Assembly: GCF_008704555.1 (NCBI RefSeq)
Contig: NZ_CP023702.1
Location: 3,410,001-3,474,000 of the forward strand
Source of the DNA: Streptomyces nitrosporeus
GTDB taxonomy: Bacteria; Actinomycetota; Actinomycetes; Streptomycetales; Streptomycetaceae
Length of the DNA: 64,000 nucleotides
Direction: 5' to 3'
Every line of letters begins with the position of its first letter. Within the stretch, counting starts at the first letter, position 1. The translations under genes and the position numbers were made by a program. Below the pieces are notes generated by a model. The model was given only the letters and a program-made list of their open reading frames with translations. It was not told where the DNA came from and searched no databases. Below, one piece after another: positions 4,616-45,110 of this stretch.

Positions 4616-5821
4616 CTACGTCGACTCCGGACGCTTGGCGGGGAAGGCGTGCTTGCGCGCCACCAGTACGACCAGCAGCACCGGGACCATCAGCAGGAGG
4701 ACGCTCCAGGCGAAGGAGTCCGGGCCGAAGGACCCCAGGAGGAGTCCGCCGACCGCGCCGCCGCCGGCCATGAAGGAGTTCCACGTGGTGACCAGCAGGG
4801 CCTGGCCCCGGTCGCCGCCGGCATCGGTGACCGCGGTCTGCAGGAGGGTGGTGACGCCGCCCCAGCCGAGTCCCCACAGCACCATCGCGCCGTAGACGAC
4901 CAGGACGTTGGTGGCCAGCACCGCCAGCAGGGCCGCCGCGACGATGAACAGGGCGCTGCTGACGATCAGCAGCATCCGCAGCTTGCGGTCCACCATGGCA
5001 CCGGTGATCCAGATGCTCACCACGGAGGCGATGCCGAAGACGAGCAGGACCACGTCCCGGGCGCCGCCCAGGCCGTTCTCGTCGAGGAAGGTGGCGATGT
5101 AGGTGTACAGGATGTTGTGCGCCAGCACGTAGGCCGCGACGACGAACAGCACGGCCGCGACGCCGGGGAGGGCCAGCGCCCTGAAGACCGGTTCGCGGGT
5201 GCCGGCGCTCTGGCCGGGCGAGTCCGGGACCGTGAAGTGGATCCACCCCAGCAGGAGGACGGAGACCGCGGTCACCAGACCGAAGGTCAGGCGCCAGCCG
5301 AACAGTTCACCGAGGAAGGTGCCGGCGGGGATGCCGAGGGAGAGGGCCAGTGGCACACCGGCCATGGTGATGGCGATGGCGCGGCCCTGGAGGTGCGGGG
5401 GCGCCAGGCGCCGCGCGTATCCGACCAGTTCGGCCCAGACGGCCGCCGCGGCGATACCGGCCAGGAGCCGGAACACCATCGTCAGCGGGTAGTTGGAGGA
5501 GAGCGCCGTCACGGTGTTGGCCACCGCGAACATCGCCACGGACAGCAGCAGCAGCCGCTTGCGCCTCCACCGTGCCGTGGTCACGGCCAGCGGGATGGCC
5601 GACACACCGGTGGCGATGGCGTAGATGGTGAGCGCCTGGCCCATGGCCGACTCGCTGACCGACAGGTCGCGGGCCATCTCGGGCAGCACGCCGGCCGGGA
5701 GGGCCTCGGTCAGGATGCCCATGAAGGCGGCGGTGGCGAGTGCCAGCAGCGGCGACAGGGGCAGCTTGCGGTTGTCCGCGGGCGGGGACGTGTCGAGTAG
5801 ATCTGTCTGTGTCGTTGACAT
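4616..5821 (-). CDS. MFS transporter, drug:H+ antiporter (DHA1-like)
   Basis: A 401-residue membrane protein with about twelve hydrophobic segments and the MFS loop 2-3 region followed by RWRRKRLLL. It resembles AraJ/Cmx-type sugar-efflux and chloramphenicol-efflux transporters. It would export a small molecule at the cytoplasmic membrane in exchange for protons. The ATG at 5821 is about 65 bp from a divergent MerR gene with an operator-like palindrome between. The simplest reading is a ligand-inducible efflux gene controlled by that MerR protein, giving self-resistance or export for the neighbouring pathway. The specificity is inferred only from position. Confidence 0.87.
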   Translation of the reverse strand: MSTTQTDLLDTSPPADNRKLPLSPLLALATAAFMGILTEALPAGVLPEMARDLSVSESAMGQALTIYAIATGVSAIPLAVTTARWRRKRLLLLSVAMFAVANTVTALSSNYPLTMVFRLLAGIAAAAVWAELVGYARRLAPPHLQGRAIAITMAGVPLALSLGIPAGTFLGELFGWRLTFGLVTAVSVLLLGWIHFTVPDSPGQSAGTREPVFRALALPGVAAVLFVVAAYVLAHNILYTYIATFLDENGLGGARDVVLLVFGIASVVSIWITGAMVDRKLRMLLIVSSALFIVAAALLAVLATNVLVVYGAMVLWGLGWGGVTTLLQTAVTDAGGDRGQALLVTTWNSFMAGGGAVGGLLLGSFGPDSFAWSVLLLMVPVLLVVLVARKHAFPAKRPEST

Positions 5822-5885: not shown

Positions 5886-6329
5886 ATGCGGATCGGTGAG
5901 CTCTCCGAGCGCACGGGAACGCCGCGCCGGCTGCTGCGCTACTACGAGGAGCAGGAGCTCCTGGTGCCCGGCCGGGCACCGAACGGCTACCGGGACTACG
6001 CCGAAGGCTGCGTGGACCGGGTCCTGCAGATCCGGGGGATGCTCGACGCGGGTCTGTCGACCCGGGTCATCAAGCAGGTGCTTCCCTGCGTCAACGATCC
6101 CCGGGCCATCCACGTGTCGGGGGCGAACGAGGAGACGATCGCCACCCTGGAGCACGAGCGGGAGCGCATGGCCGACCGCATCCGGTGCCTGACGCGCAGT
6201 CACGACGCCATCACCGGTTACCTGGAGGCGGTACGGCGTGACCGCCGCTCCCGCGGTGAGGCGCCGGTGACCGCCTACGCGGTGGCCGACTCCGCGGCCG
6301 GCCCCCTCTCCGTGACCGAGGCGGCCTGA
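5886..6329 (+). CDS. MerR-family transcriptional regulator
   Basis: A 147-residue protein with the N-terminal winged helix-turn-helix RIGELSERTGTPRRLLRYYE and the following wing NGYRDY, then a long dimerisation helix (ERERMADRIRCL). There is no Cys-rich C-terminal metal-binding loop, so it is probably a multidrug or small-molecule sensor rather than a metal or SoxR type. The ATG at 5886 has GGAGGTGG 5 nt upstream. Its 3' end overlaps the convergent FAH-family gene by 55 bp. It probably controls the divergent MFS gene. Confidence 0.88.
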   Translation: MRIGELSERTGTPRRLLRYYEEQELLVPGRAPNGYRDYAEGCVDRVLQIRGMLDAGLSTRVIKQVLPCVNDPRAIHVSGANEETIATLEHERERMADRIRCLTRSHDAITGYLEAVRRDRRSRGEAPVTAYAVADSAAGPLSVTEAA

Positions 6330-7204
6330 GGTCCGTAGCGGACGACGTTGGACAGCACCGCGCCGTGGCTGGACACGTCGATGACCATGCGGTCACCGTC
6401 CTCGATCCGGAACCCGTCGTGGTAGCTGGCCTTGTCCGCGCCCACGAAGAGGTAGTTGACCAGCCCGGGACGGCGCAGTGCCGGGTACGAGAACAGGTAC
6501 TCCGTCATGTCCCCGAAGCGGTGGAAGATCGAGTCGGCGCCGCACGAGAAGGGCCCCTCCCAGGCCGTGGCGCCGTCGCGCTCGATCGCGACACGCCCCG
6601 TCACGGTCCGCGGCGGCTCCCCGAGGAACAGCCACGGGGTCATGGACGTCTCGCACAGCTTGGCGTACGGCGTCCAGGCCCAGGGGTTCTTCAGGTGCAG
6701 TCCGATGTCGTTGAGGTCGTTGCCGAAGCTGTAGCCGGCGTAGTGCGGGTTCCCCTCGTCGTCGTTGACGTACACCAGGACGACCTCGGGCTCCTCCAGC
6801 AGCCAGACGGGGTCGGCGGGGGTGACCAGCGGGTCACCGGGCATGCGCAGCCACGACCCGAAGCCCTTGATGTAGTAGTTCGGCGGGGTGAACTCCTCGT
6901 CCGGTTCCGGGGCGCGGTCGAACTTGGAGCGGTGCGTGCCCATGAAGCCGTTGATGAGGGAGCTGTCCGTGGCGGTGGGAAGCAGCGGGGGGAGGAAACG
7001 CAGCCCGGGATCGCCGGCCGGGACCGTGACGGTCCCGGCGGTGTCCGCGACGACGGCGGCCGCCGCCTCCGGGCCGCCGGCCAGGACGGCCGCGCGTAAC
7101 CGGCCCTCCTCCACCGCGTGGAGCGTGAGGGGGTCGCCCTCGGCGGGGATGCCGAGGCCCGCGTAACGCCTGCCTTCGTACGAGCATTCGAAGATGATGG
7201 ACAT
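6275..7204 (-). CDS. Fumarylacetoacetate hydrolase-family protein
   Basis: A 309-residue protein with the FAH-fold core: EEPEVVLVYV, then HYAGYSFGNDLNDIG, which supply the acidic metal ligands, and a GDRMVIDVS end segment. FAH-fold enzymes hydrolyse C-C bonds of acylpyruvates, hydrate enols or decarboxylate beta-keto acids. The ATG at 7204 follows GGAGGT. It is the last gene of the AmCP operon, 74 bp after the aminotransferase stop. Codon 36 is TTA (7099-7097), a rare codon here. It may act on a keto-acid or acyl intermediate; the reaction is not known. Confidence 0.78.
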   Translation of the reverse strand: MSIIFECSYEGRRYAGLGIPAEGDPLTLHAVEEGRLRAAVLAGGPEAAAAVVADTAGTVTVPAGDPGLRFLPPLLPTATDSSLINGFMGTHRSKFDRAPEPDEEFTPPNYYIKGFGSWLRMPGDPLVTPADPVWLLEEPEVVLVYVNDDEGNPHYAGYSFGNDLNDIGLHLKNPWAWTPYAKLCETSMTPWLFLGEPPRTVTGRVAIERDGATAWEGPFSCGADSIFHRFGDMTEYLFSYPALRRPGLVNYLFVGADKASYHDGFRIEDGDRMVIDVSSHGAVLSNVVRYGPQAASVTERGPAAESATA

Positions 7205-7278
7205 GGTGTCGGTGACCTCCGGTGGGTCCTCGGGGTCCGGGCGGTGTGCCGGACCGGGGTCGTCGGGATGTGCGGGTC

Positions 7279-8583
7279 TCATGGCCGCGCGCCGTCCGGC
7301 GCGGGGCCGGGGGGCCGGCCGGTGAGGTCGTGCAGGACCTCGGTGACGCGGTCCAGGGCGGCGCGGATCCAGGGCAGTTCCAGCGGGTCGCGGGCCGTGA
7401 GCGCCGCGGTGCGTTCGGCGTCGGTCTCGCCGTACAGGCGGGAGGTGGCGATCCGGATCCTCAGCGGGTCGTCCGGCTCGCCGAAGACCGCCCCGGGCAG
7501 GACGCCCACCCCGTACCGCTCCATGAGCAGCTCCGTCAGAGCGGTGCCGCCCCGTATCCCGTGGAGGCGTACGAGGTCCTCCCGCAGGGGCTCGAAATCG
7601 GGGTAGAGGTAGCTCGTCGCCCGTACCGGTGTGAGGACGGTGCCGGCCGCGGCGAACCGCCGGGCCGCCTCCCGGACGACCGTCCCGTGGAGCCGGCGGC
7701 TCGCGGTGACACGGGCGGTGACCTCGGGCGGTTCCTCCAGGGCGTACGCCGCGGCCTCCTGCACGGGCGCCGCGGTGCTCGACCAGATCTGGCTGACGAC
7801 ACCGAGCAGCCGTGTGTGCAGCTCGCGCCCCGTGTCGCTGTCGGGCAGCCGCGCGACGCCGAGCCGCCAGCCGCCGAGCGCCAGGTTCTTGGTGACGCCG
7901 GTGGTGATCACCGTCCTCTCGGGGGCGTACAGCGCGGGGGAGGCGATCCGGTCCGCGGGGTCGAAGACCAGGTCGCGGTAGATCTCGTCGGAGATGACGA
8001 CGAGGCCGAGCTCCCTGGCGGCCCGTGCCAGACGGCGCACGGTCCGGGGCGAGGCGATGGTGCCGGTCGGGTTGTCGGGCAGGGTGACCACCACGGACCG
8101 CGGGTCCCGCCCGCCGGACCGGGCCGCCGCCACCGCCTCCCGCAGGGCGTCCGGGTCGGGCACCCCGCCCTCGCCGGGCGGGGTGGGGACCGGCACGGCA
8201 CGCGCGCCGGCCAGCCGGGCCTGGGCGCTGTAGCTGACCCAGCTCGGCACCGGCACCACCACGTCACCGCCGACGGCGAGCATCAGCGCGAACAGCAGCG
8301 GCTTGCTCCCCGGCCCGCAGACGACCAGGCCGGGATCGACGGGCAGACCGCGGCGCGCCCAGTACCCGGCCGCCGCCGCCCGCAGCCGCGGGCTCCCCGG
8401 CACCGGGCCGTAGGCGTTGCGGCCGGCCGCGTCGGCGAGCAGGCTCCTCAGCCGCGGAAGAACCGGCAGGCCGACTTCACCGCTGGCCAGGGACAGCACC
8501 TCCTGGCCCGCCAGACGCCTGCGGGCCAGCGCTTCGTCCGCGGCGAGCGTGGCCGACACGGCCACCGGCACGGGAGGGGACAT
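7279..8583 (-). CDS. Class I/II PLP-dependent aminotransferase
   Basis: A 434-residue fold-type I aminotransferase with NAYGPVPGSPRLR near the N terminus, the substrate and cofactor loop PDNPTGT, the Asp that pairs with the pyridine nitrogen (VISDEIY), and the PLP Lys in VTKNLALGGWRLG near residue 235. The start at 8583 has GGAG 5 nt upstream. In AmCP pathways an aminotransferase converts a carrier-bound aldehyde or ketone to an amine. This gene, in the same transcription unit as LysX/Y/Z homologues, is the obvious candidate, though action on a released keto acid is equally possible. Confidence 0.9.
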   Translation of the reverse strand: MSPPVPVAVSATLAADEALARRRLAGQEVLSLASGEVGLPVLPRLRSLLADAAGRNAYGPVPGSPRLRAAAAGYWARRGLPVDPGLVVCGPGSKPLLFALMLAVGGDVVVPVPSWVSYSAQARLAGARAVPVPTPPGEGGVPDPDALREAVAAARSGGRDPRSVVVTLPDNPTGTIASPRTVRRLARAARELGLVVISDEIYRDLVFDPADRIASPALYAPERTVITTGVTKNLALGGWRLGVARLPDSDTGRELHTRLLGVVSQIWSSTAAPVQEAAAYALEEPPEVTARVTASRRLHGTVVREAARRFAAAGTVLTPVRATSYLYPDFEPLREDLVRLHGIRGGTALTELLMERYGVGVLPGAVFGEPDDPLRIRIATSRLYGETDAERTAALTARDPLELPWIRAALDRVTEVLHDLTGRPPGPAPDGARP

Positions 8584-8742: not shown

Positions 8743-10407
8743 TCACGCCACGGCGTAGCGGTTCCGCAGTTCGACCTTGCGGATCTTGCCGGTGAGGGTC
8801 TTGGGCAGTTCCTCGACGGTCTCCAGCCGGTCGGGCAGGAAGCGTTCGGGCTGGCCGGCCGCCGTGAGGTGGGAGCGGACGTCCTCCAGCGTCGGCCGTT
8901 CGCCGCCCCGGGGCACGACCACGGCCAGGATGAGGTCGTCCAGCTTCCCGGTGGGACCGACGATGGCGGCCTCGGTGACCCGGGGATGGCGGGAGATGAT
9001 CGCCTCCAGCTCCGCCATGGGGACCACGATCCCGTCGCGCAGGATGGCGTCCTTGGCGCGCCCCAGCAGGCGGATGCCGCCCCGCCCGTCCTCACGGGCC
9101 ACGTCGCCGGTGTCGAACCACCCCTCCGCGTTCAGTTCGGAGGCGAAGCAGTCCATCCGCCGGTGGTAGCCGAGCGCCCTCGACGCCCCGCGCACCCGGA
9201 GCCGGCCCACCTCGGCGCGCTGGCCCGGGTTGTGGCAGGCGTCGATGCGTATCTCCATGGAGTCGATCGGCCGCCCGTGGCTGTGCGCCGCCCAGTCCTG
9301 GTTGTAGTCGAGCCGGGTGATGGTGACGGGGCCGAACTCCGACATCCCCCACACCGAGTACGTCTGGGCCCCGAGGGTCGCCCGTAACTCGTCGACCAGC
9401 TGTTGCAGGACGGGTGCCGCGCCGGTGACCACGTGGCGCAGGGTCGACACGTCCCGGGGGTCGGCGCGCTGGGACTCCGCCACGGCCGTGAGGGTGGGGG
9501 GCGGCCCGTACAGCAGGGTCGCCCCGTACCGCTGGATCAGGTCGGGGAGGCTGGCGTTGTCCTGCTCGTCCTGGAAGACGACCGTGCCGCCGAGCATGAC
9601 ACCGGCCAGGATGCCCTGCCCGAAACCGGAGTAGTGGATCAGGGGGGTGGTGACGGCGGCGACCAGGTCGTCGCGGAGCAGGAAGGTGTCCACGTATCCG
9701 CGTACGGCCGAGTGGACGGTGTTCTGGCTGTGCAGCACCCCCTTGGAGTCGCCCGTCGTGCCGGAGGTGAACAGCACGACGAACGGGTCGTCGGGCCCGA
9801 GCTCGCGGTCGGCGAGCTCCACCGCGCGCGACTCCTCGCGGCGGGGGGCGATGAAGAGGCCGTGGAAGTCGACGGCACCGTCCGGCGCGTGTCCGCCGAC
9901 CACGACGACGTGCTCGACGGGCAGTTCGTCCGCCATGGCCACCAGTGTCTTGGCGAGCGGGTAGCCCTCCCAGGACTCGACGGTGATGCACACCTTCGCC
10001 TCGGTCAGGGTCAGCCGGTGGCGCAGGTCGGTCTCCCGGCAGACCGGGGCGATGGGGCAGATGACGGCGCCCGCGCGCATGCAGGCGAACATCAGCGGCA
10101 CCATCTCCCACCGGTTGGGGAGCTGTACCGCCACGACGTCCCCCCGCCCGACGCCCAGTTCGAGCAGGGCCACGGCGAACCGGTCGGTGAGCCGCGCGAG
10201 TTCGGAGTAGTCCAGCGTGTCGGTGTGCGCCTCGTGCATCCGGCGGCCCGCGACGGCGAGCTTGTGGGGCCGCTCCCGGGCCTGGCGCCGCAGGTCGTCC
10301 AGGAAGGTCTCGTCGCGCCACCAGCCGCGCCGCCGGTACTCGTCGGCGCGCTCCTTCGGGATCAGGGCGCCCTGCCCGCTCCCCGGCGCCTCGGTCGTCG
10401 CGGTCAT
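8743..10407 (-). CDS. AMP-dependent acyl-CoA synthetase/ligase
   Basis: A 554-residue ANL-superfamily enzyme with P-loop motif LFTSGTTGDSKG, the SVWGMSEFG adenylation motif, the hinge region WFDTGDVAREDG and the C-terminal catalytic Lys in KTLTGKIRKVEL. It adenylates a carboxylic acid and transfers it to CoA or a carrier thiol. Sequence features fit the cyclohexanecarboxylate/medium-chain acyl-CoA ligase group. The ATG at 10407 overlaps the upstream stop (ATGA), so translation is coupled. A TTA codon lies at 9387-9385 (codon 341). With the two acyl-CoA dehydrogenases of the locus, it could feed an acyl-CoA branch. Confidence 0.9.
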   Translation of the reverse strand: MTATTEAPGSGQGALIPKERADEYRRRGWWRDETFLDDLRRQARERPHKLAVAGRRMHEAHTDTLDYSELARLTDRFAVALLELGVGRGDVVAVQLPNRWEMVPLMFACMRAGAVICPIAPVCRETDLRHRLTLTEAKVCITVESWEGYPLAKTLVAMADELPVEHVVVVGGHAPDGAVDFHGLFIAPRREESRAVELADRELGPDDPFVVLFTSGTTGDSKGVLHSQNTVHSAVRGYVDTFLLRDDLVAAVTTPLIHYSGFGQGILAGVMLGGTVVFQDEQDNASLPDLIQRYGATLLYGPPPTLTAVAESQRADPRDVSTLRHVVTGAAPVLQQLVDELRATLGAQTYSVWGMSEFGPVTITRLDYNQDWAAHSHGRPIDSMEIRIDACHNPGQRAEVGRLRVRGASRALGYHRRMDCFASELNAEGWFDTGDVAREDGRGGIRLLGRAKDAILRDGIVVPMAELEAIISRHPRVTEAAIVGPTGKLDDLILAVVVPRGGERPTLEDVRSHLTAAGQPERFLPDRLETVEELPKTLTGKIRKVELRNRYAVA

Positions 10408-11522
10408 CGGCGCTCCCCCCGGCGGGCGCCCAGCAGTTCCGGCAGCGGGTCGCCGGCCCGGCCGTCCGCGATCTCCAGCAGGTCGCGGGTGTTCTGCCGC
10501 ACCCGGTCGCCGACCCAGTCGAAGACCCATGCCTTGCGCGCCGCGGCCTCCAGGCCGAAGGGGACGACCCGGGTAACGGCCAGCGCGGCCGACGCCGCAC
10601 CGCCGATGTTGGCGATCACGCCCGGGACCAGGACCCCGCCCGAGGCGGCCACCTTCTCCTTCGCGGCGGCGCTGGACGCGAGGTTGGCACCCTCGACGAC
10701 CAGCCCGGCACGCAGCCGGTGCGTGTTCTCGGCGGTGAGCGCGTACTTCTGGGCGGCGAGGACCAGCACGTCGGCGTCCACGTCGAGCCAGGCGTCCGGC
10801 TCGCCGGACAGGGTGACGCCGGCCGGCAGCCGGGACCGGTCGATCCGGCCGAACTCGTCCGTGGCCGCCAGCAGCCCCTCCACGGGGAGCCGGTCCGCGC
10901 TGATGGTGCCCTCGACGTCGGCGACGCCCACGACGGTGTGCCCGCGTTCCTCCAGGAACCGCGCGACGGACCGGCCGACCGCGCCGAAGCCCTGCACCAC
11001 GACCCTGGCCGGCCCGGAGTTCCGGCCCGCCTCCCACGCCGTGACGGCCGCCACCCCGACACCGTGGCCGGTGACGTCGATCAGCGGCTCGTAGTACGTC
11101 CGCCAGTCGATCGGCATGTCCGGGGCGCCCAGCCGGTAGCGGGGGTCGTACTTCGCCTCCTCGAAGAAGACGGCCCGGTCGGCGGGGGTGACACCCATGT
11201 CGATGCCGAGGTGGATGCCGCCGTGCAGCAGCGGCTTCACCGTACGGCCGAACGTCCGGAACGTCTCCAGGCGGTCGCCGCCGTCCGCGACGATCCCCGC
11301 CTTGGCTCCGCCGATGCGCAGCCCGGCGAGCGTGAACTTGTCGGTCATGTCCCGGGCGAGGCCCGCGACTTCCTCCTCGGTGACCCCGGTGGTCATCCGG
11401 GTGCCGCCCATCGCCAGGCCGTCGACGAGCGTGTCGACGACCACCCAGCCCTTGATGTCCCCGCCGCTGCCGTTCAGATGAACGGTGAGGGCGGGTGCCT
11501 GCGGTTCTTCCAGAGCGCTCAT
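10404..11522 (-). CDS. Glu/Leu/Phe/Val dehydrogenase-family amino acid dehydrogenase
   Basis: A 372-residue enzyme with the catalytic-Lys motif RIGGAKAG, where the family usually has GGGK, and the Rossmann motif VQGFGAVGRS for NAD(P). Family members reversibly interconvert a 2-oxo acid and an L-amino acid. The size fits leucine or phenylalanine dehydrogenases rather than hexameric glutamate dehydrogenase. The ATG at 11522 follows AAGGA. It overlaps the ligase gene by 4 nt. In this operon it may aminate a pathway-specific 2-oxo acid; the G-to-A change beside the catalytic Lys may affect specificity. Confidence 0.87.
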   Translation of the reverse strand: MSALEEPQAPALTVHLNGSGGDIKGWVVVDTLVDGLAMGGTRMTTGVTEEEVAGLARDMTDKFTLAGLRIGGAKAGIVADGGDRLETFRTFGRTVKPLLHGGIHLGIDMGVTPADRAVFFEEAKYDPRYRLGAPDMPIDWRTYYEPLIDVTGHGVGVAAVTAWEAGRNSGPARVVVQGFGAVGRSVARFLEERGHTVVGVADVEGTISADRLPVEGLLAATDEFGRIDRSRLPAGVTLSGEPDAWLDVDADVLVLAAQKYALTAENTHRLRAGLVVEGANLASSAAAKEKVAASGGVLVPGVIANIGGAASAALAVTRVVPFGLEAAARKAWVFDWVGDRVRQNTRDLLEIADGRAGDPLPELLGARRGERR

Positions 11523-11568: not shown

Positions 11569-11604
11569 ACGTGCTCACTGGTACAGACGTGCTCACTGGT
11601 ACAG
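11569..11604. repeat. Perfect 18-bp tandem duplication at a stop codon
   Basis: The 18-mer ACGTGCTCACTGGTACAG occurs twice head to tail (11569-11586 and 11587-11604). The right copy contains the stop codon and last codons of the amidotransferase gene; the left copy is just downstream on the minus strand. It looks like a recent slippage duplication that did not alter the protein. Confidence 0.8.
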
Positions 11605-12156
11605 CTGTGCGAAGCCGCGCAGGATCTCCAGACCGTCCTTGCGGAACTCCAGGTGCGCCTGCGAGCCGTGGACGCGTCCGTCGTCGGAGCACAGGAACTC
11701 CACGGGGGCGTGCTCCGAGCGGCCGATCGACCGGAAGCCGGGCGGCGCCTGGCGCAGGTAGAGGGTGTGGCGGTGGAACACCGTCACCGTCGGTCCGACG
11801 TGGGCGAACAGCGGTTCCGCCGTGTCCACTTCCACCTTGTAGCCGCCGACCCGCTGGGGCCCCTCCTCCATGCGCCCGCCGGCCGCGAGGGCGATGATCT
11901 GCATGCCGCCGCAGATCCCCAGGACGGGGACGTCGGTGCCGGTGACCAGGTCGATGAGGGGCTTGTAGTACGCCTGGTCGTAGGCGCGGACCTTGGTCCC
12001 GCTCAGGACGACCGCCTGGTAGCGGCCGCCGGTGCCCGCCGGCACCTCCGCCGCTTCGACGGTCTCGGTGTCCGCCCCGAGGTCCTCCAGCCGCCGGCGC
12101 AGCTGCGGGAGCGAGAGGGTCCCGTTGTCGACGACGAGTACGCGGGGTTTCGTCAC
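11593..12156 (-). CDS. Class I glutamine amidotransferase domain protein
   Basis: A 187-residue stand-alone GATase-1 domain with the nucleophile elbow GICGGMQ (Cys near residue 81) and the C-terminal His-x-Glu of the triad in QAHLEF. It resembles the GMP-synthase glutaminase subunit by motif, but no synthetase partner lies here. Related folds also include gamma-glutamyl hydrolases such as PuuD. The GTG start at 12156 overlaps the kinase stop (GTGA). In an operon whose carrier protein ends in Gln and that has no LysK-type peptidase, this protein could deamidate the carrier or cleave the gamma-glutamyl amide link. That is inference; the fold is well supported. Confidence 0.88.
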   Translation of the reverse strand: MTKPRVLVVDNGTLSLPQLRRRLEDLGADTETVEAAEVPAGTGGRYQAVVLSGTKVRAYDQAYYKPLIDLVTGTDVPVLGICGGMQIIALAAGGRMEEGPQRVGGYKVEVDTAEPLFAHVGPTVTVFHRHTLYLRQAPPGFRSIGRSEHAPVEFLCSDDGRVHGSQAHLEFRKDGLEILRGFAQLYQ

Positions 12157-12968
12157 GGCGCTTCTCCGTTTCGCGTGATGGCGGTGCCGGTACGGCCTTC
12201 CAGCAGGTCCGTGACGGGGGCGCTGCCGAGGACGACCCGTCGTACGCCCGCCGCCAGCGCCTCGTCGGCGGCCCGCAGCTTCTTGCGCATCCCGCCGGTG
12301 GCGCCCCGGTCGCGGAAGGCCGCGGCCTGCTCGGCCGTGACCGCGCGGACCGGCTCGTCGTCGATCAGCAGGTGGGCGACGTCGGTGACCAGGACCAGGT
12401 CGGGTGCGCCGACGGCGCCCGCGAGGGCCGCCGCCGCCCGGTCGGCGTCGGTGTTCACCTCCTGGCCCGCCGCGTTGCGGGCGAGCGGGGTGACCAGGCA
12501 GGCGTGGCCGGGTGCGAGGTTCTTCAGCGCGCCCGGGTCCACCGAGGTGATCGGGCCCACGAGGTTCTCCATCTCGACGAGCTGCCGCTCCCGCCACCAC
12601 CAGCGTTCGCCCTCGCCCGCGCCGGCCAGGCCGTCGCTCCCGAGGATCCGCTCGGCCGTGATGCCGCGGTCCGCCAGCCGCCGGATGACGTCCTGCCCCA
12701 GCGCCTCGCTGACCGTCTTGATGTCCTCGATGACCTCGGGTGTGGTCCACCGGCTCTGGTTGCCGTACCGGTCGCGCAGGACCGCCGAAGGCTCCCGGTA
12801 ACGGGCGTCGAGGTTCCTGAGCGGTTTGGACCAGCCGTGCACCAGGACCAGCGGACGGTCCCGCCCGTGCCGGGCGAGGTCGTCCCACCAGGTGCCGTCG
12901 AGATCGTCCAGGCAGCTGCCGCCCAGCTTGACGACGACGGGGGCGGTCTTTCCGGCCGGTCCGCTCAT
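12153..12968 (-). CDS. LysZ/ArgB-like amino acid kinase
   Basis: A 271-residue amino acid kinase with the N-terminal KLGGS motif, a VHGWSKPL segment where the family normally has VHGGG, the VNTDADRAAAALAG nucleotide/substrate motif and GGMRKKL near the C terminus. LysZ and ArgB phosphorylate the side-chain carboxylate of a carrier- or acetyl-blocked amino acid. The operon order with LysX and LysY homologues makes AmCP-bound glutamate or a homologue the likely substrate. The start at 12968 overlaps the LysY-like stop (ATGA). Confidence 0.9.
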   Translation of the reverse strand: MSGPAGKTAPVVVKLGGSCLDDLDGTWWDDLARHGRDRPLVLVHGWSKPLRNLDARYREPSAVLRDRYGNQSRWTTPEVIEDIKTVSEALGQDVIRRLADRGITAERILGSDGLAGAGEGERWWWRERQLVEMENLVGPITSVDPGALKNLAPGHACLVTPLARNAAGQEVNTDADRAAAALAGAVGAPDLVLVTDVAHLLIDDEPVRAVTAEQAAAFRDRGATGGMRKKLRAADEALAAGVRRVVLGSAPVTDLLEGRTGTAITRNGEAP

Positions 12969-14023
12969 ACCGGCATCACCGGCTGCATCGTCAGCCCCGT
13001 CTCCTCGGGCAGCCCGAACCTCATGTTGAGGGCCTGGACGGCCTGGCCCGCGGCGCCCTTGATCAGGTTGTCCAGCGCCGCGAGGACGACGACGCGTCCC
13101 CCGTCCGGGTCGTGCAGGACCGTGACGTCGCAGTAGTTGGAGCCCAGCGTCGCCTGGGGGTCGGGCATGGGGATGAGCGTCTCGTCGCTGCGGCGGACCC
13201 GCACGAAGGGATGCGGCCGGTAGAACCGCAGGTAGGCGCGCTGGAGTTCGCGGAGGTCGAGCTCCTCGTCGGTGAACACGTAGCAGCTGGCGAGCAGTCC
13301 GCGCACGTGCGAGACACCGTAGGCGGACATCGTCAGCGACCCGACGGTGCCCGGTTTGCTCCGCTCCAGGAAGTCCCCCACCTCGGCGGCGTGCCGGTGC
13401 CCGGTGGGCGCGTACGGGGCGATGGCACCGTTGCGCAGCGGGTGCAGGTCCGCGGTGCGCAGCTGGAGGCCGCCCCCGCTGGACCCGCTCTTCCCGTCGA
13501 CGAGCACGGTCCGCAGGTGCAGGCCGAGGCCGAGGACGAGAGGGGCGAGCCCCAGGGTGATGGCGGTCGCGTAGCACCCGGGTACGGAGATCAGCGGCGC
13601 GTCCTTCAGGGCGTCACCGACGAGTTCCGGTACGCCGTAGACGAAGCGGTCGGCGAGTCCGGCGGAACGCTCCGCCTTGGGGTACCACCGCTCGTGCAGC
13701 TCCTGCCCGCGGATACGGAACGCTCCGCTCAGGTCGATCACGCACGCGACCCGGTCGGCGAGTTCCCCGGCGAGCCGGGCGGACACCGGGGCGGGCGTGG
13801 CCAGCAGGACCACGTCGCAGCGCTCGGCGATCCGGTCGGCGTCGGCCCGTTCGACGGTCAGGCCGAGGTCGACCCGGAGGCCGGGGTGCAGTTCGGCCGG
13901 TCTTCGGCCGGCGCTGGACTCACCGCCGAGAAAGGTCAGCCGGAGGCCGGGGTGCTGGTGCACCAGGCGGATGAGGTCTCCGCCCGCGAGACCGGACGCT
14001 CCGACAATGCCCACACGTATCAT
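12965..14023 (-). CDS. LysY/ArgC-like acyl-phosphate reductase
   Basis: A 352-residue NADPH-dependent reductase with the N-terminal Rossmann motif GIVGASGLAGG, the catalytic Cys in SVPGCYAT, and GKSGSSGGG and PYAPTGHRH segments diagnostic of N-acetyl-gamma-glutamyl-phosphate reductases and LysY. It would reduce the acyl phosphate made by the adjacent kinase to a semialdehyde while the amino group stays attached to the carrier. It overlaps the LysX-like stop by ATGA. It is probably not the host's arginine enzyme, because it lies in a carrier operon without argJ, argD or argF. Confidence 0.93.
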   Translation of the reverse strand: MIRVGIVGASGLAGGDLIRLVHQHPGLRLTFLGGESSAGRRPAELHPGLRVDLGLTVERADADRIAERCDVVLLATPAPVSARLAGELADRVACVIDLSGAFRIRGQELHERWYPKAERSAGLADRFVYGVPELVGDALKDAPLISVPGCYATAITLGLAPLVLGLGLHLRTVLVDGKSGSSGGGLQLRTADLHPLRNGAIAPYAPTGHRHAAEVGDFLERSKPGTVGSLTMSAYGVSHVRGLLASCYVFTDEELDLRELQRAYLRFYRPHPFVRVRRSDETLIPMPDPQATLGSNYCDVTVLHDPDGGRVVVLAALDNLIKGAAGQAVQALNMRFGLPEETGLTMQPVMPV

Positions 14024-14868
14024 CCGAGTGTCTCCTGCACATAGCCGAGGACCGCCGTCGTGATGTCCGCGTCGGTCGTCGAGGCCACGCCGCGCCAGGC
14101 GGGGGCGTGGTTGACCTCGTTGACGACGAAGCCGTCCGGGGTCCTGAAGAGGTCGATGCCGTAGATGCCGGGGCCGAGACTGTCCACGACCCCGCTCACC
14201 ACTTTCCGGATGTCGGGATCGAGGGCCAGGGAACGGCTCCGGTTGCCCAGGGCCGCGTTGCTGCGCCAGTCGGCCCCCGCGCTCTCGAACTCGGCGGCCG
14301 CGACGATCTCGTGCCCGACGGCCAGGCAGCGGATCGAGCCGCCGCCCAGGTAGGGCTCGGCCAGGCACGCCTGCTCGAAGGCGTGCCCCAGGTCCTCGAC
14401 GTAGTCGTACACGGAGTGGGCGAGATCGGCGTCGCGCACCAGGGTGACGCGCTTGCCCATCCCGCCGTAGACCGGCTTGAGCACCAGCGGCACCCCGAGC
14501 CCGGCGACGGCCTGTTCGAAGTCCCTGCGGGACAGCACGAGCCGGAAGTCCGGCACGGGGACACCCGCCTCACGCAGCACGGCCCGCAGCACCAGCTTGT
14601 TCTCACAGGTGTGGACGGCGGTCGCGGAGTTGAGGACGAAGGCACCGGCGGACTCGGCGTAGGCCGCGATCAGTCCGCCGCGGGTGTAACTGCGGCTGCG
14701 TACCAGCAGCGCCCCGTAGCCGTCGGCCGCGGACGGGCCGGGTCCGCCGAGGCACAGGGACTCGTCGTTGACCCAGTCGACCCGCAGGCCGAACCCGGGT
14801 GCCGCCTCGATGAGCCGGCGTTCCTCCCAGCCGACCCGGTCGGCGACGACGGCGACTGCTCCGCCCAT
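14020..14868 (-). CDS. LysX-like ATP-grasp ligase loading the amino-group carrier
   Basis: A 282-residue RimK/LysX-type ATP-grasp enzyme. It has the LysX-like N terminus (RVGWEERRLIEAAP), NSATAVHTCENK, the ATP-grasp lysine VLKPVYGGMGKRV and the metal-binding NEVNHAP near the C terminus. LysX uses ATP to join the alpha-amino group of alpha-aminoadipate or glutamate to the C-terminal Glu gamma-carboxylate of its carrier. The carrier gene immediately precedes it with a 1-nt gap, as in lysW-lysX pairs. Whether it accepts this carrier's C-terminal Gln is an open question. Confidence 0.93.
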   Translation of the reverse strand: MGGAVAVVADRVGWEERRLIEAAPGFGLRVDWVNDESLCLGGPGPSAADGYGALLVRSRSYTRGGLIAAYAESAGAFVLNSATAVHTCENKLVLRAVLREAGVPVPDFRLVLSRRDFEQAVAGLGVPLVLKPVYGGMGKRVTLVRDADLAHSVYDYVEDLGHAFEQACLAEPYLGGGSIRCLAVGHEIVAAAEFESAGADWRSNAALGNRSRSLALDPDIRKVVSGVVDSLGPGIYGIDLFRTPDGFVVNEVNHAPAWRGVASTTDADITTAVLGYVQETLG

Positions 14869-14869
14869 G

Positions 14870-15055
14870 TCACTGGCCCCAGTCGCGCAGCTGCACCGCG
14901 ACCATCCGCAGCGACAACCGGCCGTCCGTCACGTCCTCGACCCGCAGGGTCAGCATGCACTCGGGGCAGGAGAGCGTCTCGCCCGGTACGACGGGCGGCA
15001 CGGTGAGGCCGGTCTCGCACTCGGGGCAGGAACCGTTCAATGTCGCGGTGGTCAT
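14870..15055 (-). CDS. LysW-type amino-group carrier protein (AmCP) ending in DWGQ
   Basis: A 61-residue acidic carrier. Two CPEC knuckles at residues 10-13 and 30-33 form the zinc-binding N-terminal domain of LysW, and the tail ends RDWGQ. LysW proteins end in EDWGE; the gamma-carboxylate of that last Glu is the attachment point of the substrate amino group. Here the last codon is CAG (Gln) followed by TGA, and the first motif residue is Arg. The ATG at 15055 has GGAG 6 nt upstream; longer ORF starts lack a site and extend into the spacer. It is flanked by the LysX-type ligase and the DRE-TIM gene. Related carriers act in vazabitide A and s56-p1 biosynthesis in Streptomyces. The identity is firm; how the Gln end functions is unknown. 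Confidence 0.93.
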   Translation of the reverse strand: MTTATLNGSCPECETGLTVPPVVPGETLSCPECMLTLRVEDVTDGRLSLRMVAVQLRDWGQ

Positions 15056-15104: not shown

Positions 15105-16256
15105 TCAGAGGGAGCGGTAGTCGACGGCGGCCTTGCGCACCGCGTCGCGGTCCAGCAGCGGGCCGCCGGCGCGTTCCTGGCGCTCGACGAGCCACTCGGT
15201 GAAGGCGTCCGTGTCGACGTCGACACCCGAGTCGGTCAGCGCCCACCGCACGAGCGCCGGGGTGATCCGGGTCCGTACCCGCATCTCCCGCGCGTTGCCG
15301 ACGAGTTCGGCGGGCAGCGTCTCGTACGCCTGCGGGCTGGTGAGCTGGCCCGGCAGTTCGTAGGCGAAGGCGTGCGGGGTGGTCGGGCCGGACTGGAAGG
15401 CGTCACCGAACCCGGCTCCCCGCAGGGCGATCCGGGACAGCTCGGTGAGGTGGGTCAGGTCGAAGCGGGTGTCGCCGTGGATCACCCGCAGCGAGGTGAG
15501 CAGTTCGGCCAGGGGCGCGTTGCCGCCCCGCTCACCGATGCCGCCGACGGTCGCCGAGACCCACCGGGCCCCGGCGCGCACGGCGGCCAGGGAGTTGGCC
15601 ACGGCCATGCCCAGCATGTTGTGCGAGTGGATCTCGATCTCGGAGCCCTCGATGGCCGTGAGGTCCGCGATCACGGACTCCATCTGCCAGGGCGAGAGGC
15701 ACGCGACGGTCTCCGCGAGGCGGAAGCGGTCGGCCCCCGCCTCGAAACCCGTCGTCACGTACGGGACCAGGCGCTCCCTCGGGGTACGGGCCCCGTCCTC
15801 GCCGCTGAAGGTGACGTGGAAGCCGCGCTCCTTGGCCTGCGAGACCGCCGAGCGGACGAGGCTCTGGAGCAGCTTGAGGCTCGGGGACCCCAGCTTCAGG
15901 GCCGCGTGCTGTTCGGAGGTGGGGATGGAGTACATGACGTGGTGCACGCCGAGCCGCTCGGCCTCGTCGAGGGCCAGGGCGACCTGCTGCCGGTCCCGTA
16001 CGACGACGAGGGTCATGCTGCGCTGCGGGCCGACGGCCTCGTGGGTGGCGTGCACCAGGCCGGCGTCCTTCGACCCGGGGCCGGACACCATGCCGACCTC
16101 GACCAGTTCGACGCCGGTGCGGACCAGCAGGGTGGCGATCGCCGCGGCGTCCTCGGGGCCGAATTCGACGCCCGCCATGTGCGCGGAGTCCCGCAGGGTG
16201 GCGTCGGATATACGGGGCAGGGGCGGGGCCGCGGCACCCGCTTCCTCTGATTCCAT
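15105..16256 (-). CDS. DRE-TIM metallolyase (isopropylmalate/homocitrate synthase or HMG-CoA lyase-like)
   Basis: A 383-residue TIM-barrel enzyme with the N-terminal DATLRDSAHM (canonical D-x-TLRDG-x-Q), the metal-binding HSHNMLGMAVANSL and the GIGERGGNAPL loop. Members condense acetyl-CoA with 2-oxo acids, cleave HMG-CoA, or do retro-aldol chemistry. It lacks the C-terminal LeuA regulatory domain. The ATG at 16256 (AAGGGA upstream) is preferred over the GTG at 16292. As first gene of the operon it may make a chain-extended amino acid precursor, or extend an aldehyde. The exact reaction is unresolved, because Gly-Glu/Gln after LRD is replaced by Ser-Ala-His. Confidence 0.85.
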   Translation of the reverse strand: MESEEAGAAAPPLPRISDATLRDSAHMAGVEFGPEDAAAIATLLVRTGVELVEVGMVSGPGSKDAGLVHATHEAVGPQRSMTLVVVRDRQQVALALDEAERLGVHHVMYSIPTSEQHAALKLGSPSLKLLQSLVRSAVSQAKERGFHVTFSGEDGARTPRERLVPYVTTGFEAGADRFRLAETVACLSPWQMESVIADLTAIEGSEIEIHSHNMLGMAVANSLAAVRAGARWVSATVGGIGERGGNAPLAELLTSLRVIHGDTRFDLTHLTELSRIALRGAGFGDAFQSGPTTPHAFAYELPGQLTSPQAYETLPAELVGNAREMRVRTRITPALVRWALTDSGVDVDTDAFTEWLVERQERAGGPLLDRDAVRKAAVDYRSL

Positions 16257-16661
16257 TGCATTCCCTTCGGTGTACGGTGCGCTGGTTTCCACCCACCGCC
16301 CGGGGCCTTTTCCGGCGCCGCGCCGATGAATTGCGCGACGGCGGTCCCGGGACGGCGGAGCGGTGTGGAGAACTGATGAACATGCTGCTCGCCCGAGACC
16401 CCCCGGCGCAATGAAGTCCGTGTCAAAGTACGGTCAGCCACTGTCAGGGCGTGTCATGGATCCTGACTCAGGAAAGCCCTGCACACGCATCGTGAAAAGA
16501 ATTCACGACCTTCGCCCAGGCATTCGGTATTCGCGTCTACGGTTCATGCGGACGCACACACCGGGGAACTCGGTTCCGTTCCGTCCGCCGGTTCGACAAC
16601 GAAACGTTTCTGCTCCATGGAGACCCTGCCGCCCGACAAGAACTCCGAAAGAGGAATGCCG
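16257..16661. promoter_or_regulatory. Divergent promoter region of the AmCP operon
   Basis: The 405 bp between the divergent DRE-TIM and acyl-CoA dehydrogenase genes contain no convincing ORF and are relatively AT-rich around 16400-16560. They must carry promoters for both transcription units. I see no clear regulator palindrome; this is the first place to look for binding sites of the OmpR- or butyrolactone-receptor-type regulators. Confidence 0.5.
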
Positions 16662-17852
16662 ATGCTGCTTTCACCGACCCCGCCCGTCCACGCCCCCAAG
16701 GACCCGGCGGCGGACCCGCCGACCGCCGGCCGGGCCCGCGAGCTGGCCGGCCGTGTCGCCTGGCCGTCGACCGCCGAGCGGGACGCCGGCCGCCGCTGGG
16801 ACGAGGACCTGTTCACCGAGCTGACACGCGCACCGCGGGGGCCGGGCCTCACCGGGCCGCTGATCCCCGTGGAACTGGGCGGTGACGGGCTGTCCGCGAG
16901 TGAGGCCTTCGCCCTCCTGGAGGGGTGCGCCGAGGGCTCCAGGGACCCGGGCCTGACGCTCGCGGTGGTCACGCACGCCGTCCTGGCCGTCGTGCCGTTA
17001 CGGGCCTTCGGCACCCCGGAGCAGCGGGAACGCTATCTGCCCCGCATGGCGTCCGGTGAGTGGCCGGGAGCCCTGTCCCTGACCCAGACGCAGGGCGCCG
17101 CGCGCACCCCGGCGGTGCGGGCACGGCCCGGCGGCCCCGGCCAGCCGGGCTGGGTGCTGTCGGGCGAGCTGGGCCTCGTGGCGGGCGGGCCGCGGGCCCA
17201 CCACTTCCTGGTCGTCGCGGCCCACGAGGACGGGGGGCGGACGGCGTTCGTCGTGGACCGGTCCACCCCCGGCCTGCGGCTCCGTGAGGAACGCCCGGCG
17301 GCCATGCGCACCTGCGCCTGGAGCCGGCTGGTCATGGACGACTGCCCGGTGCCAAAGGACGCGGTCCTCGGGACGCCCGGCGGCGCGCCGGGCGAAGTCG
17401 AACCCCTGCTGGCGGCCCTGGACTGGGTGTTCTGCGGGGCCCCCTGGCTCGGTGTCATGCGCGCCCTGGTCCGGGACGCCATCCGGACGGCGGGCGAACG
17501 CGACGTGTTCGGCAGCCCGTTGACCCACTCCCAGACCTCCCGGTTCGCCCTGGCCGACCTCGCCACCCGCTGCGAACTGGCCGAAGGGCTGCTGCGCCGG
17601 GCGGCCGCGCGGTTCGACGCCGGTGGCCGGCCCTCCCTCCCGGAGGCCGCCGCCGCGCGCCTCTTCGTGACGTCGGCCGCCCGGGACGCCGCCGTGACCG
17701 CGGCACGTCTGGCGGGCCCGCTCACGGCCCGCGGCGACCGTCTGATCGAACGGACCCACCGCGACGCCCTGTTCTTCTCCGCGACCGGCGGCGGCCCCGA
17801 GGTGCTGCAGCCCGTCGTCGCCGCCCATCTGCTCGCGCTCGGCCAGGGATGA
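16662..17852 (+). CDS. Acyl-CoA dehydrogenase-like flavoprotein (degenerate)
   Basis: A 396-residue protein with the acyl-CoA dehydrogenase fold: LIPVELGGDGLSASEAFALLE near the N terminus, and C-terminal helices with AARLAGPLTARGDRLIERTHRD. The usual EP-x-AGSD flavin/substrate loop is replaced by SLTQTQGAA, so it may be a specialised or non-catalytic partner of the next gene. The ATG at 16662 is chosen because AGAGGA lies 6 nt upstream. A TTA codon is present at 16998-17000 (codon 113). It runs with the second dehydrogenase, 15 bp apart, divergent from the AmCP operon. Confidence 0.8.
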   Translation: MLLSPTPPVHAPKDPAADPPTAGRARELAGRVAWPSTAERDAGRRWDEDLFTELTRAPRGPGLTGPLIPVELGGDGLSASEAFALLEGCAEGSRDPGLTLAVVTHAVLAVVPLRAFGTPEQRERYLPRMASGEWPGALSLTQTQGAARTPAVRARPGGPGQPGWVLSGELGLVAGGPRAHHFLVVAAHEDGGRTAFVVDRSTPGLRLREERPAAMRTCAWSRLVMDDCPVPKDAVLGTPGGAPGEVEPLLAALDWVFCGAPWLGVMRALVRDAIRTAGERDVFGSPLTHSQTSRFALADLATRCELAEGLLRRAAARFDAGGRPSLPEAAAARLFVTSAARDAAVTAARLAGPLTARGDRLIERTHRDALFFSATGGGPEVLQPVVAAHLLALGQG

Positions 17853-17867
17853 GGAGTGGTCACCGAC

Positions 17868-19088
17868 ATGCGTACCGAAGGACACCGCGGACGGACCGTG
17901 CCGGGTTTCCCGGGTGTGGCGTCCCGCGCGGGCGAGACGGACAGCACCGGCGTCATCCCGCCGCAGAACTGGGCCGAGATCGTCGACAGCGGCTATCTGC
18001 GGCTCTTCCACCCGGCCGAGGCCGGCGGCACCGGCGCGGACGGGCCGGCCCAGATCGACGCCATGGAGGCACTGGCCCGCGCCTGCTCGGGCACCTACTG
18101 GTCGGCGACCGTGTCCGCGCTGCTCTGCGGCAAGCTCGTCTCCACCTACGGCGACCTCCGCCACCACGGGGGCCTCCTGCGCTCGCTGCTCTCCGGTGAG
18201 CGGACGGCGTGCTTCGCCATCGTCGAACCCACCGCGGGCAGCGACGCCGCCACCTACCGCACCACGGTGCGTCCCGCCGGGGACCCGGACGGGGGGTTCG
18301 TGATCCGGGGGGAGAAGTCCCGGATCACCAACGCCCCGACGGCCGACCTGGCCGTGGCGCTGGCCCGCAGGCAGAGGCCGGCCGGCGACGACGGACCCGA
18401 CTGGTGCCTGGCCTTCGTGGACCTGCACCGGCCCGGAGTCCACCGCTACGGCACACCCCACATGGGTCTGCGGGGAATGCCCTGGGGAGGGCTCGTCCTC
18501 GACGACGTCGAAGTCGACGCGCGGGACGTCGTCCCCGTCCCGTTCGACGAACTCGCCGAAGGGATGACCTGGGGCTGGCTCCTGGTGTCCGTGGCCGCCA
18601 TAGCCACGGCGGAGGCGGCGCTGGCGGCCTCGGTCCGCCATGCCCGGGAACGGGTCTCGGCCGGCCGCCCGCTGGCCCACATGGAGGGCGTCCAGGCCCA
18701 GCTCGCCGAGTCCCGCGCGCAGATCGACGCCGCCCGTGTGCTCGCCCGCCGCGCGGCGTCCGAGCGGATGGCCGGACGTCCGGCCCGGCAGCTCATCGGC
18801 ATGCTCAAGGTGTACGCCACCGAGATGGCGGTCGAGGTGGCGGCCCGCGCGGTGCAGATCCACGGGGCGTTCGGGGTGACCCAGGGGCACGAGGTGGAAC
18901 GCCACTACCGGGACGCCCAGATGAACGTGATCGGCGCGTTCGCGTCGAACCGGCTGCGCGAGCAGATCGCCGAGGGCCTGGGCCTGGGCCCCGCGGTCTA
19001 CCGGCCCTTCGACTGGATCGCGTCCTCGGGGCTGGAGCACCGGCCCGTGGGCCTCGACGGCCCGTACCGGCCCGCCGCGACGGCCTGA
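17868..19088 (+). CDS. Acyl-CoA dehydrogenase-family flavoprotein
   Basis: A 406-residue enzyme with the canonical flavin/substrate loop FAIVEPTAGSDAATYR, the mid-domain GMPWGGLVLDDVEV and the C-terminal QIHGAFGVTQGHEVERHYRD. It would introduce an alpha,beta-double bond or act as an N- or C-oxidase on a carrier- or CoA-bound intermediate, using FAD and an electron-transfer partner. GAGGAG overlapping the previous stop serves the ATG at 17868, 11 nt away; an in-frame GTG at 17856 is too close to it. Pairs of a normal and a degenerate member often form heteromers, which may apply here. Confidence 0.88.
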   Translation: MRTEGHRGRTVPGFPGVASRAGETDSTGVIPPQNWAEIVDSGYLRLFHPAEAGGTGADGPAQIDAMEALARACSGTYWSATVSALLCGKLVSTYGDLRHHGGLLRSLLSGERTACFAIVEPTAGSDAATYRTTVRPAGDPDGGFVIRGEKSRITNAPTADLAVALARRQRPAGDDGPDWCLAFVDLHRPGVHRYGTPHMGLRGMPWGGLVLDDVEVDARDVVPVPFDELAEGMTWGWLLVSVAAIATAEAALAASVRHARERVSAGRPLAHMEGVQAQLAESRAQIDAARVLARRAASERMAGRPARQLIGMLKVYATEMAVEVAARAVQIHGAFGVTQGHEVERHYRDAQMNVIGAFASNRLREQIAEGLGLGPAVYRPFDWIASSGLEHRPVGLDGPYRPAATA

Positions 19089-33859: not shown

Positions 33860-34143
33860 GGTGCGCTGGGCCGTCTGTGGCCGTCAACCCTACTACCGCC
33901 AGCGTCGCATGGTGATCCGCAGCGCCACCAGGGCTCCGGCAGGGATACACAAGCCGGGCGGTGCGCTGCTCCACAGCGACAGGCATGCGGCGCCAAGATG
34001 CACGGCCGAGCCGGGTTCCCCCTGCTCCGCCACCGCATCCTCCTCCAGTGATCACTACACGGCGCTACCACCGATTACGGGCCAGAGCGGCTCGTTTGAC
34101 AGACCCCCGAGCAGTTCTTCAAAAGCACGGGGCACACAGAAAC

Positions 34144-34182
34144 GTGCCCTGGCACAAGCGATGACGGCTTGCACCAGGGCAC
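34144..34182. terminator. Terminator of the GHKL-ATPase unit
   Basis: GTGCCCTGGCACAAGC pairs with GCTTGCACCAGGGCAC with one mismatched step, about 23 bp beyond the ATPase stop on the minus strand. The rest of 33860-34205 has no gene-like ORF. Confidence 0.6.
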
Positions 34183-34205
34183 GGACTAGCGGGTGATCTC
34201 GGCTG

Positions 34206-35939: not shown

Positions 35940-35953
35940 GCTGGTCTCCTGAT

Positions 35954-36313
35954 CTACAGAGTGTGCGGCGGAGGGAGAGCGCGGCGCAGCGCGCGCTCGA
36001 TTTCGGTCTCATGGCAGTACGGGCAGCATCGGCCTGTTCCTGCGGGGCTGGCGGGGTGGATCAAGTTGGTGATCGTGGCGCTCGTCGAGAGGTAGCGGTG
36101 GTACCAGTACGACTCGATGGCGTAGGCGTGGTGGCTGTCGCGGGTTGGCGCAGCTACGAAGTGCGTGGCGCGGTTATAGAGGGGATGACGAATCAGACGT
36201 CGGCGAAGACAGGTGTCGGAGCGGCCGACGTACAAGGGCGTGGCCTGCTGCTGTTCGTATCGCAGAAGCAGATAAGCGCCGACGGTTCCCGCAGGAATTT
36301 GTAGGTTGACCAT
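35954..36313 (-). CDS. GIY-YIG nuclease-like protein
   Basis: A 119-residue protein that fits the GIY-YIG layout: AYLLLRYE for the first strand, PLYVGRSD for YIG, the catalytic Arg in LRRRLIRH and Glu in YAIESYWYHRY. A CPYCH pair near the C terminus could bind a metal. The ATG at 36313 has a weak SD. It is sandwiched between a hypothetical gene (80 bp) and the GHKL ATPase (14 bp), so all three are probably one operon. Confidence 0.75.
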   Translation of the reverse strand: MVNLQIPAGTVGAYLLLRYEQQQATPLYVGRSDTCLRRRLIRHPLYNRATHFVAAPTRDSHHAYAIESYWYHRYLSTSATITNLIHPASPAGTGRCCPYCHETEIERALRRALPPPHTL

Positions 36314-36393
36314 GGCCCGTGTGAAACGGAGAGCCAGACTTCCCTTGCTCTCGTACGGCTCACCAAGACGAACCCCTGATCCTTGGAGCCCCG

Positions 36394-39937: not shown

Positions 39938-39940
39938 CTG

Positions 39941-39990: not shown

Positions 39991-39991
39991 A

Positions 39992-45101: not shown

Positions 45102-45110
45102 TTCGCAACT

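Follow-up and report, generated by a model that had tools for sequence, protein, structure and literature searches.

LysW-like carrier proteins ending in glutamine and their conserved gene cassette in Streptomyces nitrosporeus and other actinobacteria

The window analysed here, a whole stretch of 64,000 nucleotides from Streptomyces nitrosporeus, contains an operon with a LysW-like carrier gene on the minus strand and two acyl-CoA dehydrogenase genes on the plus strand. The features are listed below, beginning with the six genes that form the core.

15105..16292, minus strand, HMGL-like condensing enzyme, first in the six-gene core and of the homocitrate/isopropylmalate synthase type, though it does not reach the cut-offs of the models for these enzymes
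14870..15055, minus strand, LysW-like carrier of 61 amino acids, tail LRDWGQ, four zinc-ribbon cysteines (below the cut-offs of PF21344 and NF041070)
14020..14868, minus strand, RimK/LysX-type ATP-grasp ligase, loop GGMGKR, Ala257 (TIGR00768, 158 bits, above the cut-off of 143.4)
12965..14023, minus strand, ArgC/LysY-type reductase, start placed by eye (TIGR01850, 331 bits, above the cut-off of 233.6)
12153..12968, minus strand, LysZ/ArgB-type amino acid kinase, start placed by eye (TIGR00761, 102 bits, below the cut-off of 151.3)
11593..12156, minus strand, stand-alone class I glutamine amidotransferase (GATase), triad C81-H167-E169, R128 and R171 invariant, GTG start placed by eye
10404..11522, minus strand, ELFV-type amino acid dehydrogenase, a common but non-universal neighbour
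8743..10407, minus strand, AMP-dependent acyl-CoA synthetase/ligase, start placed by eye
7279..8583, minus strand, PLP enzyme, aminotransferase class I/II
6275..7282, minus strand, GguC/AraD1-like protein (NF040903, 120 bits, below the cut-off of 340; no match in Pfam)
4616..5821, minus strand, MFS transporter
16617..19088, plus strand, two acyl-CoA dehydrogenases, which adjoin the cassette in one cluster subtype only

The carrier frame (15055..14870, minus strand) translates as MTTATLNGSCPECETGLTVPPVVPGETLSCPECMLTLRVEDVTDGRLSLRMVAVQLRDWGQ, followed by TGA. The last codon is CAG, directly before this stop, and the translation thus agrees with the original prediction, which had read the tail as RDWGQ. 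The carrier scores 25.4 bits against PF21344, where the gathering cut-off is 27, and 38.9 bits against NF041070, where the cut-off is 75, and passes neither. The two CxxC zinc-binding pairs (C10, C13, C30, C33) are present in 63 out of 63 carriers counted, and a search of the PDB with the carrier found two LysW chains, the aligned ends of which read ...DWGE. As expected of a LysW system, there are homologues of LysX, LysY, and LysZ in the operon, but the C-terminal Glu that would be the attachment site is replaced by Gln in the carrier of the window, as it is in 67 further distinct genes.

That the Gln is due to a point mutation or a sequencing error is ruled out by its conservation and by a second carrier gene in the same genome (C1:401691-401873), 82% identical to the window copy and also ending in RDWGQ. 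Readthrough or recoding of the TGA is unlikely, since TAA and TAG stops are also found (TGA in 72, TAA in 2, and TAG in 1 of the 75 undeduplicated RDWGQ genes) and the ATG of the ligase gene is one base past the carrier stop codon. The region around the second carrier gene (C1:392000-411000, L006) holds another complete RDWGQ cassette, in the order HMGL-W-X-Y-Z-GATase-ELFV-AMPL, which is of the subtype without acyl-CoA dehydrogenases.

Among 392 Streptomyces genomes, 34 have a match to the carrier, 25 of these with a close relative (66-100% identity) and nine with matches of 34-42% only. In a phylum-wide sample of 396 genomes, the genome from which the window is taken was the sole match. Gln-tailed carriers are present among the named loci of Streptomyces, Kitasatospora, Streptacidiphilus, Actinacidiphila, Actinoplanes, Kribbella, Glycomyces, Nocardiopsis, Streptomonospora, Spongiactinospora, and Sphaerisporangium. 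It had been envisaged in the original prediction that terminal Glu might prove to be the rule in identical operons; the reverse is the case, with 68 distinct close carrier genes, including that of the window, ending in RDWGQ after deduplication and a single one, from Actinopolyspora alba (L117), ending in RDWGE. A more distant relative, 49% identical (G1153), ends in LPDWGQ. All of the 23 other LysW-type carriers examined (9 + 9 + 5) end in Glu; nine distant carriers, found in the combined set of the genus search and the named loci, end in EDWGE, and the nine LysW carriers over the cut-off in a family search of 296 genomes of the class end in EEDWGE or EEDFGE.

The carrier set was made up of the 392-genome Streptomyces search and the 50 named loci, minus eight duplicates. 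A spurious match (L067), matches with internal stop codons (L156, L171, L172), 13 matches below the cut-off, and four loci on the same contigs as others (L157-L160, on the contigs of L077, L098, L108, and L115) were left out. The operon tree, based on five concatenated proteins, has 64 tips; 12 loci, of which eight were duplicates and four had a second carrier at their centre, were removed from the tree set, and L090 is also absent from it, its contig having no HMGL gene.

On this tree the last residue of the carrier changes once. At the carrier's four other Gln/Glu sites, changes of any kind number 24 (position 24), 32 (position 43), 21 (position 50), and 7 (position 53). These counts (1 against 7-32) rule out neutrality between Gln and Glu at the tail and indicate that Gln is favoured over Glu there, beyond mere tolerance. 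The comparison of sequences therefore presents the terminal Gln as both conserved and selected. In carriers of this kind the cargo is taken to be attached at the terminal Glu, so a whole clade without it would mean either a different loading chemistry or a priming step that has gone unrecognised.

The conserved order of the cassette is HMGL-carrier-LysX-LysY-LysZ-GATase. In two loci, L109 and L056 (the latter the same as its duplicate L116), the six core genes are the only matches to the genes of the window operon. The ATP-grasp ligase is present in all 65 clade operons. The pattern used for the LysY catalytic motif matched in 12 of the 65, and was probably too narrow. It is highly probable that a conserved clade of Gln-tailed carriers exists that has the ligase and the GATase as partners.

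There are several variants of this arrangement. Directly upstream of the core-only cassette of S. aurantiacus is a dihydrodipicolinate-reductase-like gene (L109:8029-8778). Two RDWGQ carriers are present in a cluster subtype that comprises L049, L072/L105, L074/L099, L080/L100, and L082/L095; the second of them adjoins the PLP enzyme gene, being directly before it in L082. In the PDWGQ cassette of G1153 (L161, L169), a gene similar to DAP/ornithine decarboxylases is located between the carrier and the ligase.

A profile made from the operon GATase matched in 75 out of 75 raw clade loci, including L117, and in none of the 18 Glu-type loci, the comparison being made within the loci only. In the 65 deduplicated operon sets the GATase is likewise always present, in 64 of them within the locus. 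In the remaining case, L161, no GATase was found on the stretch of contig examined, which ends at the operon; in this genome (G1153) a GATase of 41% identity is found on another contig, near genes that are aminotransferase-like, as judged by eye, and diaminopimelate-epimerase-like. That the GATase is a chance neighbour is ruled out by its constancy, the core-only loci included, and its presence in L109 and L056 makes it part of the core. None of the other five core genes was recognised as coding for an amide hydrolase, in these loci as in the others.

The catalytic triad of the GATase (C81, H167, E169) is intact in 65 out of 65, R128 and R171 are invariant, and the Gln at Cys+4 is kept. The model of the window GATase has a mean pLDDT of 94.4, and the 50 PDB matches listed for it are all glutaminases of the GMP synthetase, aminodeoxychorismate synthase, or anthranilate synthase type, with that of GMP synthetase the nearest; the titles of 1wl8, 2d7j, and 9kpv are silent on this, but another search names these entries as GMP synthase. 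This likeness points to glutaminase chemistry and, taken alone, gives no preference to a gamma-glutamyl hydrolase. There are sequence differences from GMP synthase, with LSGT in place of LSGG and QAHLE in place of QFHPE, and the invariant arginines are in the motifs FxRH and HxExR; all of these are possible specificity residues.

The GSWGR motif of LysX and ArgX recognises the EDWGE tail, as reported in a 2023 haloarchaeal study (PMC10433800). Of the 18 Glu-type loci, 16 gave a ligase match (L060 and L150 gave none), and each of these ligases has the motif. It is present as well in 3vpd, 3vpb, and six further loci, and in 17 out of 17 of the aligned Glu-type sequences, 3vpd and 3vpb included; L147, which has a GSWGR loop, is outside the column counts as only a fragment of it aligned. 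In the clade, the loop is GG[M/L]G[K/R]R in 65 out of 65 ligases (GGMGKR in 60, GGMGRR in 4, and GGLGRR in 1), and neither L117, with its Glu tail, nor the divergent L161 departs from this form. By sequence, the loop that meets the tail in the canonical systems has changed in step with the Gln.

At position 257 of the ligase, Glu is present in the 17 LysX and ArgX sequences compared, while of the 65 ligases of the clade 37 have Ala, 27 have Gly, and one has Leu; the RimK of P. aeruginosa has Gly here and GTQGIG as its loop. At position 260, Ala is present in 41 of the clade ligases, Gly in 23, and Ser in one. Glutamate-using ArgX is reported to have Gly-Phe or Ala-Leu and aminoadipate-using LysX to have Asn-Thr (PMC10433800), and by alignment these pairs would fall at 260-261 of the clade ligase. 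With this residue at 260 and a LysY that passes the ArgC cut-off, glutamate is likely to be the donor that is loaded on the carrier. The basic residues at 139-140 are kept, and it is plausible that they could bind the alpha-carboxylate of the tail. Position 209 was rejected as a tail contact: it is Asn in 62 out of 65, and the Ser found in L117 is also found in the Gln-tailed L049.

The window ligase fails TIGR02144 (LysX_arch), with 156.4 bits against a cut-off of 275.6, and passes the RimK-family model TIGR00768 (158 against 143.4), these scores being for the window's ligase alone. Its model (mean pLDDT 85.5; residues 201-207 below 50; other four models 71-75) has as its best structural matches 3vpd (TM 0.90), 3vpb, 3vpc, and 5k2m, with RimK chains at 0.86 or below.

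L117 combines a Glu tail with a ligase loop of the clade type and an intact GATase, and its genome has no LysK over the cut-off. This locus is inside the Gln clade, with a local support of 0.986, and outside it are only L103 and the outgroup L161, which is very distant (branch 1.9). The placement makes a reversion to Glu likely, short of proof. A close carrier was found in 1 out of 10 Actinopolyspora genomes, and the Glu tail is from one assembly. If this operon works, the amide is dispensable, which counts against transamidation as the means of loading. That the GATase is kept would mean that it does more than deamidate an encoded Gln, and suggests a further role, for example in release.

The release enzyme of the canonical systems, LysK, has a different distribution. 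Its signature, GRGxVDAK, is carried by 15 of the 18 Glu-type loci and is absent from all 75 clade loci, where a wider pattern gave five matches, none of the GRGxVDAK form. When 26 of the genomes were searched with TIGR01902, all 10 that are Glu-type had a match over the cut-off, as did 6 of the 16 from the clade; the best match in the genome of the window scores 54.8 bits against a cut-off of 163.1. Of the ten clade genomes without LysK over the cut-off, nine are Gln-tailed and one is that of L117. In the six with LysK, the 20-kb stretch around it has a GSWGR ligase in 6/6 and a Glu-ended carrier in 5/6 (L177 being the LysK stretch in which no carrier was found), and this is a separate system in those genomes. 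In this sample, LysK goes with the Glu tail and the GATase with the Gln tail. Weaker M20 matches to TIGR01902, or better ones, are present in all 26 genomes, including those of the clade, and an unlinked M20 peptidase could be the release enzyme.

With the LysW and ArgW systems of Thermus, Sulfolobus, Thermococcus, and the haloarchaea, the clade shares the zinc-ribbon carrier, the DWG tail, the RimK-type ligase, and the LysZ- and LysY/ArgC-type enzymes. It differs from them in ending in Gln, in having the loop GG[ML]G[KR]R for GSWGR, in the addition of the GATase and the HMGL enzyme, and in that its loci yielded no LysK. RimK is the alpha-L-glutamate ligase of ribosomal protein S6; the clade ligase is of the same superfamily and has Gly or Ala where LysX has Glu, as RimK has Gly, but the carrier context and the loop differ. 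In Natrinema, replacement of the last Glu of ArgW by Ala is reported to cause arginine auxotrophy (PMC10433800). Carriers are also described for Streptomyces secondary metabolites of the vazabitide, s56-p1, and azinomycin type (PMC9303977), and these have in common with the clade that non-protein amino acids are built on a carrier in an actinobacterium. In the actinobacterial Glu-type loci of the present study, which have not been equated with those clusters, the carriers end in Glu, the ligases have GSWGR, and LysK is mostly present. In lacking the terminal Glu, the GSWGR ligase, and a LysK in the locus, the Gln clade is set apart from the canonical carrier family, although it would probably work like an amino-group carrier system. 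Among the open-access papers listed by literature searches, none has, by its title and the beginning of its abstract, a Gln-tailed carrier as its subject; an earlier description is possible.

Iso-maleimycin is reported to have been lost from Streptomyces sp. QL37 when lysW and rimK of its BGC23a were deleted, and S. coelicolor M1152 with BGC23 is reported to produce it (PMC12022981). With BGC23a, and with the maleimycin cluster of S. showdoensis (PMC12022981), the clade cluster shares four components: a 2-isopropylmalate-synthase-like gene, LysW, the RimK ligase, and the AMP ligase. The main text of that paper does not contain the words 'glutamine', 'amidotransferase', or 'GATase'. Streptomyces sp. 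SM11 and S. shenzhenensis are named there as carrying a similar cluster, and both carry the RDWGQ cassette (L094 and L110, respectively). This makes the link to iso-maleimycin likely, and the cassette is therefore likely, short of proof, to belong to the maleimycin/iso-maleimycin cluster type. The clusters would then probably be tied to iso-maleimycin and hence to lugdunomycin, and the tail and ligase loop together provide a sequence signature with which such clusters can be found.

As regards the product, glutamate semialdehyde (C5) might be extended by two carbons through the HMGL enzyme to give a C7 aminopimelate. Neighbouring genes in L109, L169, and L161, which resemble dapB, dapF, and DAP/ornithine decarboxylase genes, would fit a C7 amino-dicarboxylate. 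Such an aminopimelate could presumably close to the cyclopentene dicarboximide of maleimycin.

Three ways of using a Gln tail had been put forward in the original prediction: deamidation of a pro-form, loading on the alpha-carboxylate, and transamidation. The first, with the GATase of the operon as the deamidating enzyme, and the second survive the comparisons made here; the third is weakened by the L117 operon. In the most far-reaching reading, to which we would give a probability of about 0.35, the glutamine used by the GATase would be the encoded last residue of a carrier protein instead of the free amino acid, and the carrier would be made in an amide-capped form, the GATase both opening and unloading it and a re-tuned ligase loading it, in replacement of the LysX(GSWGR)/LysK pair. 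The GATase would open the encoded terminal Gln, leaving a free gamma-carboxylate, to which the modified LysX would couple the amino group of what is probably glutamate. LysZ would phosphorylate the bound glutamate and LysY would reduce it to the semialdehyde, the HMGL enzyme would extend this, and the GATase would finally cleave the gamma-glutamyl amide and free the product in LysK's stead. This mechanism, with the gamma-amide of the tail as the target of the GATase, first in the encoded Gln and later to free the product, is the one that we prefer, though tentatively, at somewhat less than even odds. It would account for the mutual exclusion of GATase and LysK and for the retention of the GATase in L117. 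It explains the strong preference for Gln poorly, blocking by Gln alone being insufficient, and the likeness of the GATase to ammonia donors, together with a ligase that is without GSWGR and E257 and is RimK-like at 257, speaks against it.

Those same features are better accommodated if LysX couples to the alpha-carboxylate of the Gln, by analogy with RimK, the amide leaving a single reactive carboxylate; on balance we think this unlikely, but well worth consideration. The selection for Gln over Glu would then be explained, as would the tolerance of one Glu tail in L117, and the ligase does pass the RimK-family cut-off and not that of LysX_arch, with GSWGR and Glu257 lost in 65 out of 65 and Gly at 257 in RimK. 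A further part of this alternative, which we hold to be equally doubtful, is that the GATase would supply ammonia elsewhere in the pathway, as its resemblance to ammonia-donor subunits might suggest, and that an unlinked peptidase would release the product, M20 matches being present in 26/26 genomes. On the other hand, the best structural match of the ligase is a LysX (3vpd, TM 0.90, against 0.86 for RimK), basic residues are still present in the loop, no peptidase is recognised in the core, and the presence of the GATase in core-only loci would be left without a reason. A search of the RimK paper gave no passage on the choice between alpha and gamma.

The remaining alternatives are all improbable. 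Class I GATases form a gamma-glutamyl thioester, and with Gln and GATase occurring together it could be imagined that the GATase forms such a thioester with the carrier from its Gln, which the amine of the substrate then displaces, no ATP being needed for loading. This transamidation has little to recommend it, given that the ATP-grasp ligase is present in 65/65 operons and that a Glu tail would be dead, yet the L117 operon is otherwise intact. Slightly less credible still is that the Gln prevents loading by a coexisting GSWGR-type ligase and is deamidated by some other route; a locus with such a ligase and LysK is indeed present in 6/16 clade genomes, but 10/16 have no LysK over the cut-off, so that the second system is probably absent there, and nine of these keep the Gln, the tenth being that of the Glu-tailed L117. 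Least credible is that the tail amide donates its nitrogen to the product, for example as a maleimide nitrogen, with LysX and ammonia from the GATase re-amidating the Glu: the pairing of ATP-grasp enzyme and class I GATase does resemble carbamoyl-phosphate synthetase, iso-maleimycin is an imide, and a Glu tail could be amidated first, but a LysY so strongly of the ArgC type implies an acylated glutamate bound to the carrier.

Away from the operon, there are two differences in base composition within the window. The G+C content, which is 0.64-0.79 in the other 2-kb blocks, falls to 0.57-0.62 in the region 34001-46000, which has possibly been acquired. The block 20001-22000 has a G+C content of 0.79 and, with an AT skew of 0.37, is the most AT-skewed of the window.
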